Of a DNA stretch of 20,491 nucleotides, positions 8,283 through 13,176 are shown piece after piece; within the stretch, counting starts at the first letter, position 1; every line of letters starts with the position of its first letter. Source of the stretch: a virus; the IMG/VR virus record IMGVR_UViG_3300048113_000176, positions 1 to 20,491 of that record; one strand, 5' to 3'. The position numbers and the translations under genes were made by a program. The notes under the pieces were generated by a model. The model worked only from the letters and a program-made list of their open reading frames with translations. It was not told the DNA's origin and made no database searches.

Positions 8283-8764
8283 AAAAAAAAAATTGCGGAC
8301 ATAACCGCGTCCATAGGCATAGCTAATAAATTATCCGCATTTTCGACTTGGTACTCCTCTATGCTATATTTGTTCTTCAAAGAAACTAAAATAGGTCTGT
8401 ATAAGACATTCATTGCTTTTTCCATATTATCCCAATCCCCTATAAAATTGTCTAGGTCAATGTACTCTCCTAGCAGCAAGTCGTCCAATTCCGGGTGAAA
8501 TCCGTATTCTGTGCCGTTTAGTTTAAACTTTGATACTAGACTAGGCTTTTCGCTAAATAAGTCGCTTAGAACGGTTATTATATCGTTTGTATCTCTTAGC
8601 CTTAGCCTAATAACGTCCTTTAGGTCTAGGCCGCAAAAAATCTCAATCATTTTCGCATTTATAAACCTATCCTCTGACTCATTCTTTTGAATCTTCAAGA
8701 ACCTTTTATATTGGCCTAGAGTAATTTCACTTAATGAATTTGGTATTTTAACTTTTACTGACAT
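8114..8764 (-). CDS. Tail assembly chaperone, short form (gpG-like)
   Basis: This 216-residue protein is followed by an overlapping second frame and, further on, the tape measure gene, the hallmark of a phage tail chaperone. It opens with VKIPNSLSEITLGQYKRFLK and is acidic and helical. The segment MSAIFFLWNLGLELSQ (about 152-167) sits at the slip site. The in-frame tail after the slip (to FMDSLKETLHDLKISLN) keeps a regular amphipathic pattern, so the unshifted form is probably also functional. The gene opens the tail operon: a terminator lies upstream at 8812-8839 and the box CGTTATAATAGTATG covers its ATG. Unlike most siphoviruses, four more genes lie between it and the tape measure gene. 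Confidence 0.75.
   Translation of the reverse strand: MSVKVKIPNSLSEITLGQYKRFLKIQKNESEDRFINAKMIEIFCGLDLKDVIRLRLRDTNDIITVLSDLFSEKPSLVSKFKLNGTEYGFHPELDDLLLGEYIDLDNFIGDWDNMEKAMNVLYRPILVSLKNKYSIEEYQVENADNLLAMPMDAVMSAIFFLWNLGLELSQVMTNSLEEEGSEVLTRYLNSQQSGVGISQFMDSLKETLHDLKISLN
8283..8292 (-). promoter_or_regulatory. T10 slippery run, likely -1 frameshift site in the tail chaperone
   Basis: On the minus strand the codons read GCA ATT TTT TTT TTG TGG. Both T TTT TTT and T TTT TTG fit the X XXY YYZ pattern for -1 slippage. The -1 frame is open immediately downstream and encodes the extension at 8028-8282. No other heptamer in the overlap fits as well. Confidence 0.65.
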
Positions 8765-9299: not shown

Positions 9300-10454
9300 T
9301 TAATGTAAATTGTATTTTCCAAAGTTTGGCTTACTTAATACAGAGTAGGTCGCGTACCGGACCGCGTCAATCGTATGGTTATGCTTGTCTACGGGCTTGT
9401 TAATCATTTTACCGCTTCGGTCCTCCTGCCACTTATAATTTCTAAACTCTTGAATGGCGTTATTACTATCCTTCAGAATATGAATTTTAAAGCGTTTTAA
9501 TAAGTCAATTCCTGCATTTATACTATCGGCCCCTTTTAAACTTGGTCGCACATTCCAACCCATTCTGCGAAGTTCCTCAATCAATCTAGGCTCTGCTGAA
9601 TCAAAATAAATTGTTTGTCTTTCAATTCCGACCTCTCGCCACTTTTTATGAATGTCGATTGTTGTCATTTGAGTTTGATATAAATGCTCTTGAATGTAAA
9701 GGTCGTAGTCCTTTCTATAAACAGAAACTAAGGTCGTTGGGTCATTCGTATAACCCGCGTCTGCCCCGTAGCTTATAAATTCTGCATCGGCCGGTATTTG
9801 ATTAACCTCAACGTAATTAAATATAGTTGATTTACTTACCCCCTTTATTCCAAGCCCGTAGATTTGCCAATACTGTTCATCGGTGTATTTTAGTCTTTCA
9901 ATTTCCTCTTTAATGCTAGCGCTAAGGAAAGTATTATCCAAATAAGTAGTAATATTAAAATCGGCATCTTTTCTAGGTATTACCTTGTCATAAATCCAAT
10001 GGTACTCGTCCGACGGATTGAAGTCAAGTATTATTTTTTCATCTGTTCTAAATACCAACTGTTGCCAATCCTCGTAGTCTAGCTCATTGGCCTCATTTAT
10101 AAATAGCAGGTTTCTTTTTCGTCCTCTTACTTTTTGCGGTTGATCTAAAGAAATAAACTCTATTAAATTTCCGTTTAGTTTATATTCGTGGCTTGACTTA
10201 TTATGGTTGGCCTCAAAGTAGCTGCTATGAATTTTTAGTATATCAAAGAAGTCCCTCATTACGGAAGCGCGAACCGACGGGAACGTTTTCCTACAAATTG
10301 TTATCGTCTTTCCGGTATTCTTTAGCGAGTAATGAAATATAATATATAACAGGATATTATAGGTCTTTCCGGACCTAGTACCTCCCTGCTCTATTGAGAT
10401 TTTTTTATCTGATTCTAATAAATGCTCAAAAACTACGTTAGTCTTTATTCTCAC
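9300..10454 (-). CDS. terL: Terminase large subunit
   Basis: This 384-residue ATPase and nuclease cuts and pumps DNA into the prohead. The Walker A motif is GGTRSGKT (24-31) and the Walker B motif is LLFINE (116-121). The RNase H-like nuclease domain shows its acidic residues in DAGYTND (Asp232), YFDSAEP (Asp285) and HTIDAVRY (Asp363). Length and motifs fit the PBSX-type Terminase_3/Terminase_6C class. It starts at GTG (10452-10454), overlapping the small-subunit gene by 17 nt. It is the last gene of the modification-and-packaging block. No portal gene follows it, contrary to the usual order. Confidence 0.93.
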   Translation of the reverse strand: MRIKTNVVFEHLLESDKKISIEQGGTRSGKTYNILLYIIFHYSLKNTGKTITICRKTFPSVRASVMRDFFDILKIHSSYFEANHNKSSHEYKLNGNLIEFISLDQPQKVRGRKRNLLFINEANELDYEDWQQLVFRTDEKIILDFNPSDEYHWIYDKVIPRKDADFNITTYLDNTFLSASIKEEIERLKYTDEQYWQIYGLGIKGVSKSTIFNYVEVNQIPADAEFISYGADAGYTNDPTTLVSVYRKDYDLYIQEHLYQTQMTTIDIHKKWREVGIERQTIYFDSAEPRLIEELRRMGWNVRPSLKGADSINAGIDLLKRFKIHILKDSNNAIQEFRNYKWQEDRSGKMINKPVDKHNHTIDAVRYATYSVLSKPNFGKYNLH

Positions 10455-10794
10455 TTTTTATTATTTCAATTTCAAAGCTAGTAGGCATTCCGTCTGCCCC
10501 TGTAATTTCCTGCCTCTCTACATAGCCCCTTTTCTTACCTTTTGTCTTTAAGTAAAAAATTGTCGCCGCAGTTGAATTTTCAGAAATTTGTTTATGTAGC
10601 TGACTTTCCGCAAAGTCTAGCGCAACGTTTTCTATTTCCCGAACCGCAGAAGAAAATTCTGTATCTTCATTTATCCACTTGTAATAAGTGCTTCTAGGTA
10701 TTCCCGCTTTTTTGCAGGCCACCGTAACTACTCCCAAACTCTGCTCCAAGGCAGATAATAGTGATTCCTTTTTTATATGTCTACTTTCGTTCAT
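10438..10794 (-). CDS. terS: Terminase small subunit
   Basis: This 118-residue protein should recognise the packaging site and load the large subunit. The first half contains a helix-turn-helix (ACKKAGIPRSTYYKWINED, about 26-44) typical of small terminases of the phBC6A51 type. The second half (AATIFYLKTKGKKRGYVERQ, about 75-94) matches the oligomerisation end, where 'YLKTKGK' is characteristic. It overlaps the formyltransferase gene by 14 nt upstream and the large subunit by 17 nt downstream, so packaging is translationally coupled to the cassette before it. Confidence 0.88.
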   Translation of the reverse strand: MNESRHIKKESLLSALEQSLGVVTVACKKAGIPRSTYYKWINEDTEFSSAVREIENVALDFAESQLHKQISENSTAATIFYLKTKGKKRGYVERQEITGADGMPTSFEIEIIKSENKD

Positions 10795-11476
10795 TTTTAT
10801 TATTTTTTTTATACCAACCGTCTGCTCTATTGTTTTGTTCTAGCATAAGACTATCGGGCCTATAAATATCTTTTACCTCTGTTGATGGCTCCCAAGTTGA
10901 AAACCTTTTATCCTGTGGGCTTCTTATAATAACGCCATTCATAATATCGCTAATTGCTTTAGATAATAGCCTTACTCCCATTTCTTGAAGAGAATTTCTC
11001 CATAGGCTTGCTGCCGCTTTTTTAGAGTCCTCATTAAATAGCTTCGGGTCTATGAAACAAAAATCTTGGTAGGCAATGTCCCCTCTGTCAATTCCGGAGT
11101 TAAGCCAAAATACTGTGCCGCCGGTAACAGGCTCTCTCATTTTAACCGCCCATTCTATTGATGACCTACCTCTATGTCTAGGCAAAAGGCTCGGGTGGTA
11201 CCCTATCCAACCGTATAAGGGCTTAAATCGGGTTTTTCTGCCGATATAGTCAAAGCTATGCGCAGTTATACCCAAGTCCACATTATCGGGCATTGTATCG
11301 CCGGACAATGTCCCGGAGGTTATAATTGGCACGCCCCAAGTTATTGCTGCCTTTCCAATATATCTGTCCCCAACGGGCGCAGCAACCCCGACAATCTCAA
11401 CCCCCTCCATTTTTCTGCAAAGGTCAAAGACCTGCTCCCCAAAGTATTTTTGTCCGCTAATAAAAACTCTAAGCAT
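10781..11476 (-). CDS. Formyltransferase-like protein (Fmt/GART fold) with altered NxH motif
   Basis: This 231-residue protein has the formyltransferase fold used by methionyl-tRNA and glycinamide-ribotide formyltransferases, which move a formyl group from 10-formyltetrahydrofolate to an amine. The active-site loop GYHPSLLPRHRG (92-103) and the block TGGTVFWLNSGIDRGDIA (118-135) are clear. His94 and Asp130 fit the catalytic His and Asp. The usual Asn two residues before the His is Gly92. The C-terminal RSPQDKRFSTWEP (185-197) is what I recall from phage- and prophage-borne members. It has no tRNA-binding C-terminal domain, so initiator tRNA is an unlikely substrate. It overlaps the GNAT gene by 8 nt. 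A base amine on DNA, or a small precursor, is a plausible acceptor by context only. Confidence 0.8.
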   Translation of the reverse strand: MLRVFISGQKYFGEQVFDLCRKMEGVEIVGVAAPVGDRYIGKAAITWGVPIITSGTLSGDTMPDNVDLGITAHSFDYIGRKTRFKPLYGWIGYHPSLLPRHRGRSSIEWAVKMREPVTGGTVFWLNSGIDRGDIAYQDFCFIDPKLFNEDSKKAAASLWRNSLQEMGVRLLSKAISDIMNGVIIRSPQDKRFSTWEPSTEVKDIYRPDSLMLEQNNRADGWYKKNNKNERK

Positions 11477-11990
11477 TTTTTAAACCAATATATTTAAATC
11501 CTTGTACCGCCCGAAAGTGCCCCCCGTACCCGCCGGTTTTAGATGCATTACTACCTATATTTTTTTTACTCTTATTTCTTTGTCCCTTAGCAATAGACGC
11601 ACCGCTTCTTTTTTTATTTGCGCCATAAAGCATTTGGCTTTTTAAAACCCACTTTGGGCTTCTATTTAGGTAGCCAATTAACTGCGGGTGGCTTGTATGA
11701 AATAGTGTAGGTAATTTATGGCCCCTGCGCCCATTTCCCTGCTTATGGTATTCCATAATGTACTCTAGAAACTTTGTACCTACTCCCGCCCCCTGCCACT
11801 CGGGCATAACCACAAGCCTAGAAGCTCTGTAAGCGTGCGCCGTAAACATTGGCATAACCGCAACGTGGCAGACAAGCTCGCCCTCTATTGTGCCAATAAA
11901 ATATTGTGCAGCAGGAGGGAATTTTAAGTCTAAATAATAATGTTGCTTAAAATATTTCCAATAAGTTCTGTCGACCTGCCTAATTTCCAA
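11469..11990 (-). CDS. GNAT N-acyltransferase, possibly the second half of an ABC-GNAT fusion
   Basis: The GNAT fold is shown by ASRLVVMPEWQGAGVGTKFL (56-75), with the acyl-CoA loop QGAGVG (66-71), and by TSHPQLIGYLNRSPKW (99-114). The C-terminus ends GGHFRAVQGFKYIG, comparable with the ending of Mom-like proteins. The only start in the frame near its N-terminus is TTG (11988-11990). The frame is open further upstream, to 12026, and the residues before the TTG (ERPKFD, leading into LEIRQVDRTYW) resemble the linker of fused ABC-GNAT proteins. So the true N-terminus may be joined to the ATPase by a -1 slip at the A10 run (12019-12028). A Lys/Arg/Asn/Ser-rich stretch (126-150) is probably disordered or contacts DNA. 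Substrate unknown. Confidence 0.8.
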   Translation of the reverse strand: MEIRQVDRTYWKYFKQHYYLDLKFPPAAQYFIGTIEGELVCHVAVMPMFTAHAYRASRLVVMPEWQGAGVGTKFLEYIMEYHKQGNGRRGHKLPTLFHTSHPQLIGYLNRSPKWVLKSQMLYGANKKRSGASIAKGQRNKSKKNIGSNASKTGGYGGHFRAVQGFKYIGLKNA

Positions 11991-12625
11991 GTCGAACTTT
12001 GGCCGTTCTCCAATGTCGTTTTTTTTTTAACCTCGCCCGTAGACGTATCAAGAACCCAATCCGGCTGAACCCATTCCAAAATATCGTAGTGGCAAGAGAG
12101 TAGTACAACTTTTCTGCCCTTGGTTCTTTTAAATGATTTTGAAAATGCAAGCGCTCCAACCTTTGCTATTTGCCTATCGACTACGGACGTAAATTCGTCT
12201 ATAATTGATTCGCTGCCTCCGTCTGATAAAACCCGAGCGAGGCCTGCTCTAAATTGCTGCCCATTACTTAGCGCGTGGAACGGTCTTAACCAACTCGGGA
12301 CGTCCCCAAGCCCAACGCTAGCAAGAAGCCCTGTAACCTTATTAAAGTCCCCCTCCGGAGCAATATCATCAACAATAGGTTTATCCTTACTCCAACCCGA
12401 GTATAGGTCCTCTATCTTGCCACCGCCAAATAATTCTTTTCCAATGGAAGTCTTACCCGAGCCACTTGGCCCAACAATAACCCCTATTTGCCAATCTTCT
12501 GAGTCAACCGGTACATCAACGTCGAGGCTAAATGTATCGCCTCTCTCTGCATTAAATAGCGACTTAACCCTTGCAGCCCGGTAGCTATTAAAATTTTTTG
12601 TTTTATTTCTTACTTCTATTTTCAT
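11930..12625 (-). CDS. ABC-type ATPase of the phage ParB-ABC-GNAT cassette
   Basis: This 231-residue soluble ATPase shows Walker A GPSGSGKT (52-59), the ABC signature LSNGQQ (119-124), Walker B SIIDEF with Asp143-Glu144, and the switch His in SCHYD (His179). The blocks DEFTSVVDRQIAKVGALAF and SCHYDILEWVQPDWVLD are typical of a phage/bacterial family that pairs with, or is fused to, GNAT enzymes. There is no membrane partner, so it is not a transporter. Residues after about 202 lie past the A10 run and look unrelated to the family, which suggests that the frame has slipped there. It starts at TAATG with the ParB stop. It may act as a DNA-bound or conformational motor for base modification; this is inference. 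Confidence 0.82.
   Translation of the reverse strand: MKIEVRNKTKNFNSYRAARVKSLFNAERGDTFSLDVDVPVDSEDWQIGVIVGPSGSGKTSIGKELFGGGKIEDLYSGWSKDKPIVDDIAPEGDFNKVTGLLASVGLGDVPSWLRPFHALSNGQQFRAGLARVLSDGGSESIIDEFTSVVDRQIAKVGALAFSKSFKRTKGRKVVLLSCHYDILEWVQPDWVLDTSTGEVKKKTTLENGQSSTWKLGRSTELIGNILSNIII
12019..12028 (-). promoter_or_regulatory. A10 run at the ABC/GNAT junction, candidate -1 slip site
   Basis: On the minus strand the ATPase frame reads GTT AAA AAA AAA ACG. A -1 shift gives AAC GAC ATT GGA and continues in the GNAT frame. The GNAT frame has a TAA whose last two bases are the first two A of the run, so it opens exactly inside it. Ribosomal slippage, polymerase slippage (one extra A), or a homopolymer error in the assembly could each account for it. 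Confidence 0.65.
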
Positions 12626-13176
12626 TATGTTACGACTATTTTACATTTATAACCCTGCTTTGTTAATTGAGAAAATACTTTTTCCTGTTCCTCTTCGGTC
12701 GGGCAGTTTACAATTACTCCGTACTGCTCCTTATATCCTACGCCGTCGTCCTCAAAGTCGGGCTGCGGGGAGTACGGCTCGTCCTCCAACTCTTCCTTTT
12801 CGGGCTGCCAAACATCAAGGCCCCATTCTGCTAGCTCAACGTTTTCAAAGGCATTTGCCAAAATGTCCCAATCCCATTCTCCAAAGCCTACGTTATCTTT
12901 TATAATAAATTCCTGCGCCTGCTTTTTAGTTAAGTCGTCCGCCTGTATAATATAGACCTCCTTTAACCCTATTTCCCTACAGGCTTTGTAGCGCATATTA
13001 CCGCCTAGTATAATATTATCCTTGTCGACAACTATTGGCCTTAAAGCTAGCATTTCCGGAAATTCCTTAACGCTATTAACGAGCTTGTTAAATTTACTCT
13101 TATTTATAAATCTAGGGTTTGCGATATTTTCCTTTATAGTTGAAATACCGACCTTTTGTATTTTTAATTTAGCCAT
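12625..13176 (-). CDS. ParB-like nuclease-fold protein with C-terminal helper domain
   Basis: This 183-residue protein begins with a ParB N-terminal fold: the residues IANPRFINKSKFNKLVNSV (18-36) and the loop ILGGNMRYKACREIGL (56-71), which replaces the standard GGHRR motif with GGNMR. Acidic, Trp-rich residues follow (EWDWD, about 100-104). The C-terminal part (YGVIVNCPTEEEQEKVFSQL, 152-171, then GYKCKIVV) matches a small domain I associate with ParB proteins near phage DNA-modification genes. In many phages this gene precedes a DNA methyltransferase; here the ABC-GNAT-formyltransferase genes take that place. It has no partition-type DNA-binding helix-turn-helix domain. A role in directing a modifying complex to DNA is inferred. 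Confidence 0.82.
   Translation of the reverse strand: MAKLKIQKVGISTIKENIANPRFINKSKFNKLVNSVKEFPEMLALRPIVVDKDNIILGGNMRYKACREIGLKEVYIIQADDLTKKQAQEFIIKDNVGFGEWDWDILANAFENVELAEWGLDVWQPEKEELEDEPYSPQPDFEDDGVGYKEQYGVIVNCPTEEEQEKVFSQLTKQGYKCKIVVT

Follow-up and report, generated by a model that had tools for sequence, protein, structure and literature searches.

We analyzed a cassette on the minus strand of IMG/VR virus record IMGVR_UViG_3300048113_000176 (a viral record of 20,491 bases, referred to at its full length as the window), for which a role in DNA modification had been predicted. In minus-strand order, the locus encodes a ParB-like protein, an ABC ATPase, a GNAT acyltransferase and a formyltransferase-like protein, followed on the same strand by the small (TerS) and large (TerL) terminase subunits. 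Neighboring genes overlap by 1-17 nt, with 1 nt shared by ParB and ABC (TAATG), 8 nt by GNAT and the formyltransferase, 14 nt by the formyltransferase and TerS, and 17 nt by TerS and TerL. The ABC/GNAT pair is the exception, as the open frames overlap by ~97 nt. The original prediction described four overlapping genes leading into terS and terL; the frames, their order and the overlaps into the terminase genes stand, while ABC and GNAT instead appear to form one frameshifted gene.

The ABC and GNAT frames and the A10 tract

The zero frame of the ABC ATPase (11930..12625, minus strand; 231 aa; PF00005, E = 1.1e-5) ends, without a slip, at a TAG codon at 11932-11930. The GNAT frame (11469..12026, minus strand; PF13508, Acetyltransf_7, E = 1.6e-6) lies at -1 relative to the ABC frame and is open from an A10 tract (12026) onward, starting with KKNDIGERPKFDLEI. 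This tract (12019..12028, minus strand; T10 on the plus strand) is the sole A10 run of the coding strand. The surrounding codons read GAG GTT AAA AAA AAA ACG, placing the heptamer A_AAA_AAA in the zero frame at 12026-12020. A -1 slip here gives ...EVKKK-NDIGERPKFDLEIRQVDRTYWKYF..., an ABC-GNAT fusion totalling 385 aa, in which the RPxxxLE(I/V) linker is identical to that of in-frame ABC-GNAT fusions. The nearest in-frame relatives carry both domains within a single open reading frame (ORF) of about 362-409 aa. The same arrangement is seen for phrog_11143 (357 aa), of which positions 1-195 fall on ABC (E = 6.8e-84) and positions 205-352 on GNAT (E = 4e-47). The listed GNAT ORF (11990-11469) starts at a TTG inside the conserved linker, and both ERPKFD, between the tract and the TTG, and the residues past the TTG have homologous counterparts in the linker of in-frame fusions. 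In many relatives, the GNAT frame has no start codon at all ahead of the GNAT core. Because phrog_11143 spans both domains and the linker is conserved where the start codon is not, the window ABC and GNAT are read as one gene joined by a -1 slip. A separate GNAT gene starting from the TTG at 11990 was ruled out, given the linker kept upstream of it and the many relatives without a start codon.

The ABC ATPase motifs (Walker A GPSGSGKTS, signature LSNGQ, Walker B SIIDEFTS and H-loop CHYD) are all intact as judged from the alignment and from the model of a relative, and the coenzyme A (CoA) loop of the GNAT, WQGAGVG, is canonical. All matches listed by Foldseek for the ABC-GNAT model were ABC proteins, and the search is thus silent on the GNAT. 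No ABC transporter permease is annotated in or beside the cassettes, as taken from annotations only with no membrane-topology prediction run, and labels like 'iron siderophore transporter', given to Streptococcus phage genes, reflect annotation by similarity.

Relatives were collected from viral-contig scans, a bacterial-genome scan and phage records, giving 238 loci with distinct GNAT DNA. For 167 of these, a formyltransferase is encoded directly downstream, and this set comprises 94 in-frame fusions, 72 loci split at -1 and one (L247) split at +1. With the exception of L300, the -1-split loci of this set (71/72) all have an A6-A11 tract that includes an A_AAA_AAN heptamer in frame. Tract and frame are shared by split loci that come from numerous data sets and whose proteins can be as little as about 60-70% identical. 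Lys codons in the tract are strongly biased toward AAA (178 AAA to 16 AAG, compared to 573 to 278 across the remaining ABC body), with a p-value of 1e-13 that is indicative only, since the sequences are related. Among the loci without a formyltransferase, 61 are in-frame fusions, and distant ABC-GNATs of this group are also split at -1, at T7, T6C or A10.

Homopolymer tracts are prone to error and the window TTG could serve as a GNAT start, such that the split might come from faulty sequencing or assembly, from gene decay or from two genes that each have a start of their own. Error is set aside, and programmed frameshifting favored, because 71 of the 72 distinct loci with a split, drawn from numerous data sets, share the -1 frame and the tract, which speaks against decay as well; two genes are at odds with the many relatives lacking a start codon in the GNAT frame and with the linker conserved 5´ of the TTG. 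The comparison of relatives thus largely refutes these explanations, which we consider very improbable. The few exceptions, namely L247 (+1 split, A11 tract) and L300 and L264 (no A tract at the split), may stem from decay or another mechanism. Phase variation at the A10 tract was also considered and is unsupported, as the tract-length classes keep the -1 relation with L247 (A11) as the sole +1 exception.

Collectively, the alignments support programmed -1 frameshifting. The A7 and T7 tracts point to slippage of the ribosome, while slippage during transcription would also be possible at A9-A11 tracts. An upstream purine box (Shine-Dalgarno-like element) common to all was not found. The related heptamer A_AAA_AAG is the dnaX site and, in E. 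coli, one of the sequences most prone to shifting (PMC5009743). As for dnaX and the lambda-type tail chaperones, an in-frame slippery heptamer would give two products sharing an N-terminus; unlike in those cases, the longer product would be an ABC-acyltransferase fusion. We also noted an apparent split ABC-GNAT gene in Lactococcus phage P335 (Orf24/25; L100, 5962-7016) and Streptococcus phage Javan141 (L099, 5962-7025), in which the -1 split has no clear heptamer (GGTTTTTC) and the frames are annotated as 'putative ABC transporter' or 'ABC iron siderophore transporter' followed by a hypothetical gene.

Composition and spread of the cassette

The ParB-like protein (12625..13176, minus strand; 183 aa) has an N-terminal ParB_N domain (PF02195, E = 3.2e-6) and matches phrog_940 (4e-28), phrog_498 (1.8e-26; the ParB part of a DNA methyltransferase family) and the N-part of PADLOC MTase_II (3e-8). 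Its C-terminal tail (residues 145-183; 12628..12744, minus strand; YKEQYGVIVNC..EEEQ..LTKQGYKCKIVVT) corresponds to a motif of about 37 residues that is found directly 5´ of ABC-GNAT, usually overlapping its start, and that looks beta-alpha-beta-like, the secondary structure being a guess from sequence. In the window, in Gordonia phages and in Clostridia, this motif is the C-terminus of a ParB-like protein, while in Mu-like and many other relatives it is a free protein of 41-65 aa (phrog_28816, unknown function). The mini-protein of P. gingivalis phages carries the label 'acr candidate'.

The cassette, consisting of the ParB tail or mini-protein, ABC-GNAT and the formyltransferase, is conserved among Gordonia phages as well as across several phyla of bacteria. 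The tail profile matched directly upstream of ABC-GNAT in 78/80 bacterial genome loci, in 30/30 viral loci bearing a formyltransferase and, across the whole collection, upstream of it in 162 of the 167 loci with a formyltransferase downstream. A formyltransferase match was obtained for 73 of the 80 genome loci, nearly always directly downstream of ABC-GNAT. These loci derive from Bacteroidota, Bacillota, Pseudomonadota, Verrucomicrobiota, Planctomycetota and Acidobacteriota. The Gordonia phages have the same order as the window (ParB, ABC-GNAT, formyltransferase, terminase), and placement after ParB and before terminase genes is also common for ABC-GNATs without a formyltransferase. Co-occurrence had been named as a check capable of refuting the predicted association, and the genes clearly do occur together beyond the window phage, the formyltransferase lying directly downstream of ABC-GNAT at 167 distinct loci. 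Among 395 genomes surveyed from a single class, only one further close relative of the formyltransferase turned up besides the starting genome; the cassette is therefore sporadic.

The formyltransferase-fold protein

The last cassette gene (10781..11476, minus strand) encodes a protein of 231 aa with a Formyl_trans_N domain (PF00551, E = 3.9e-14; phrog_9240, 5e-45) and predicted disorder at residues 193-231. Its best PDB profile match is to 10-formyltetrahydrofolate (10-formyl-THF) dehydrogenase (FDH; 2bw0, E = 4.6e-28), followed by Fmt (4e-19), and FDH is also first in the Foldseek search (4qpd, E = 1e-15); Fmt, GART and ArnA are among the sequence or fold matches as well. The domain search bore out the original observation that the protein has no C-terminal tRNA-binding domain. 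With NCBIfam scores far under the cut-offs and no tRNA domain, a genuine PurN or Fmt was ruled out. Residues His94, Ser96 and Asp130 of the window protein correspond to His106, Ser108 and Asp142 of FDH, and the triad is invariant. A catalytic Asn-x-His marks the amine formyltransferases (Fmt, GART, ArnA). The position of this Asn, two residues before the His, is Gly92 in the window and Gly, Ala or Ile in the aligned members. By these comparisons, the protein is closest to the hydrolase domain of FDH.

FDH moves the formyl group onto a 4´-phosphopantetheine thiol (PMC8748788), and HypX, which has an FDH-homologous N-terminal domain, has been proposed to make formyl-CoA (PMC6802093). The cassette enzyme resembles the ALDH1L1 hydrolase domain and the HypX N-terminal domain in sequence, fold and His/Ser/Asp triad (FDH was compared directly, HypX by literature), and differs from both in being a stand-alone protein of 200-231 aa that lacks a carrier, dehydrogenase or decarbonylase domain. 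Because the amine-type Asn is absent and the resemblance is to FDH and HypX, we consider it more likely that the enzyme supplies the GNAT with a CoA thioester than that it formylates a base itself. The same features count against the earlier idea that the formyltransferase acts directly on base amines.

Two observations concern relatives of this enzyme. Gene 3 of Gordonia phages (e.g. L095:1823-2473), annotated as 'tRNA-methyltransferase', belongs to the FDH-like formyltransferase family of the window. In many Bacteroidales loci (L013, L097 and L103-L128), the formyltransferase is much shorter, at about 157-170 aa, and divergent, with an HPSPLP motif and part of the N-terminal region missing, possibly representing a distinct subtype.

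Link to DNA modification and proposed mechanism

Just 5´ of the mini-protein, 18 of the loci encode a zinc ribbon that is com-like. All eight of the ribbons scanned match PF10122, 'Mu-like prophage protein Com' (E = 1e-11 to 1e-20), and the PHROGs name for the com-like protein of Komp_PAO1_1 is translational regulator / gpCom control of modification. The cassette comes after the tail genes in Komp_PAO1_1 and the P. gingivalis phages. Since mom of phage Mu is likewise preceded by com, at the right end, the cassette of Mu-like prophages thus occupies the slot of mom, behind the dedicated mom activator. We also compared the PAN70 mom locus with Komp_PAO1_1 for a possible swap between mom and the cassette, and dropped it given that the gene order is too different.

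Two further features are in line with a DNA target. The ParB-like part resembles the N-terminal part of the ParB-methyltransferase family (phrog_498), and the cassette often lies just ahead of terminase genes, as it does in the window, where TerS (10438..10794, minus strand; phrog_309, 4.6e-8) and a PBSX-type TerL (9300..10454, minus strand; TIGR01547, 3.8e-46) follow. The mom slot behind com, the tie to ParB-like proteins or the mini-domain, and the position near terminase genes therefore support DNA modification by the cassette. The DNA-modification reading originally given thus gained independent support; the chemistry on DNA stays inferred. Assignment as a defense system was rejected, as PADLOC gave just weak partial matches to mad3 and MTase_II. 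Microbacterium phage Dropshot (L185:969-2121) pairs a ParB gene with an overlapping gene that is truly Mom-like, and this ParB is without the tail motif associated with ABC-GNAT.

According to PMC7824862, Iyer, Aravind and colleagues had earlier predicted that a GNAT with an ABC ATPase is a base-acylating phage system. The cassette and the predicted systems are alike in GNAT-ABC ATPase coupling, phage setting and predicted base acylation; the passages of PMC7824862 that restate the prediction mention no formyl enzyme, frameshift or link to the com/mom slot. A literature search, with most subscription papers outside its coverage, gave no link of ABC-GNAT to a formyl enzyme, frameshifting or com.

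With slightly better than even confidence, we propose that the locus is a DNA-modification cassette of the ABC-GNAT kind that uses formyl-CoA as donor and yields an N-formylated base. The ParB-like protein (or, in relatives, the C-terminal mini-domain alone) together with the ABC ATPase would carry the GNAT to DNA, where it would acylate a base amino group from acyl-CoA, shielding the genome from restriction ahead of packaging. The GNAT would be made solely as ABC-GNAT via -1 slippage at the A10 tract, such that each cell would contain ABC alone and ABC-GNAT at a set ratio. The formyltransferase would draw formyl from 10-formyl-THF and pass it to a phosphopantetheine thiol, proposed to be that of CoA, and the resulting formyl-CoA would be the GNAT donor. 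Because GNATs use acyl-CoA, the route from 10-formyl-THF through formyl-CoA to an N-formyl base is the simplest joint mechanism. The complete path from folate to CoA to DNA, in which an FDH-like enzyme would make formyl-CoA and a frameshift-made ABC-GNAT would formylate bases under ATPase control, replacing Mom, is a more tentative proposal whose truth as a whole we regard as doubtful.

Several observations weigh against this proposal. The link to com comes from relatives and does not extend to the window phage itself. The cassette shares with Com-Mom of Mu the slot behind com in Mu-like prophages, the GNAT fold and a proposed late anti-restriction base modification, and differs in that its GNAT is fused to ABC, accompanied by a formyl enzyme and a mini-protein, and not detectably Mom. 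A 'Mom-like ending' had been noted for the GNAT; its C-terminal motif, GYGGHFRAVQGFKYIG, is conserved across the family, yet profile-profile comparison with Mom (hhalign) gave a probability of only 0.2%, with shallow profiles (Neff 2-3). We therefore rejected homology of the GNAT to Mom, whose structure has been solved (Mu Mom, PDB 8bv8), although the two may have a remote common origin within the GNATs. Base acylation is consequently not inherited from a characterized enzyme, and for virion DNA it is a prediction. About 30% of the distinct ABC-GNAT loci (71/238) have no formyltransferase, and formyl is therefore not the donor for the whole ABC-GNAT family. A Pfam scan detected no acyl-carrier domain in the formyltransferase, and no ACP-like carrier was seen among the cassette genes. 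Finally, no conserved RNA stimulator was found downstream of the tract (mean folding z -0.23), which distinguishes the site from dnaX and the tail chaperones; a stimulatory element is not strictly needed at A-rich tracts.

Other functions were weighed against the formyl-CoA route. The GNAT could add an amino-containing acyl group (e.g. glycyl) to the base, with the formyltransferase then formylating the free amine. This would fit the position of the formyltransferase as the last cassette gene, after GNAT, and the amine formylation carried out by other members of the PF00551 fold (Fmt, ArnA and GART, which formylates glycinamide ribonucleotide). We consider it unlikely, with the amine-directed Asn absent from all aligned members and thiol- or water-directed FDH domains as the nearest relatives. 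Alternatively, ABC-GNAT might use an ordinary acyl-CoA while the formyltransferase is a folate-side accessory, for example a 10-formyl-THF hydrolase tuning one-carbon or nucleotide pools. Such hydrolysis is also performed by FDH hydrolase domains, and many ABC-GNATs lack the formyltransferase; the tight association of the enzyme with one ABC-GNAT clade across phyla and phage types would be unexpected for pool adjustment, and we judge this explanation quite unlikely. Distinctly improbable, in our view, is a protein or RNA target, such as the host polymerase or a defense protein. GNATs mostly act on proteins, and some phage GNATs are known to target RNA polymerase (PMC7824862), while the mom slot behind com, the ParB association and the neighborhood of packaging genes point to DNA.

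If the formyl-CoA proposal is correct, phages of several bacterial phyla shield their DNA by base acylation via an enzyme unlike Mom, with a one-carbon unit that is probably derived from folate and with the amount of the modifying enzyme set by frameshifting. The presence of the cassette in cultivable Gordonia phages leaves the chemistry open to direct test. The cassette also explains many misannotated genes, labeled as ABC transporter, tRNA-methyltransferase, PurN or 'acr candidate', with gene callers splitting the ABC-GNAT enzyme in two.

Elsewhere in the window, ORF 8764-8114 (216 aa) overlaps ORF 8282-8028 (84 aa, at -1, KWGWYQSIYGLAQGD...) at a T10 run on the coding minus strand (8283-8292). 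By analogy with the phage tail assembly chaperones G/GT, this is likely a second -1 frameshift site. A minus-strand frame at 3-560, cut by the record end, contains DUF285/BspA-like repeats (FNQDLNSWDVGNV) and probably encodes a phage adhesin or tail protein.

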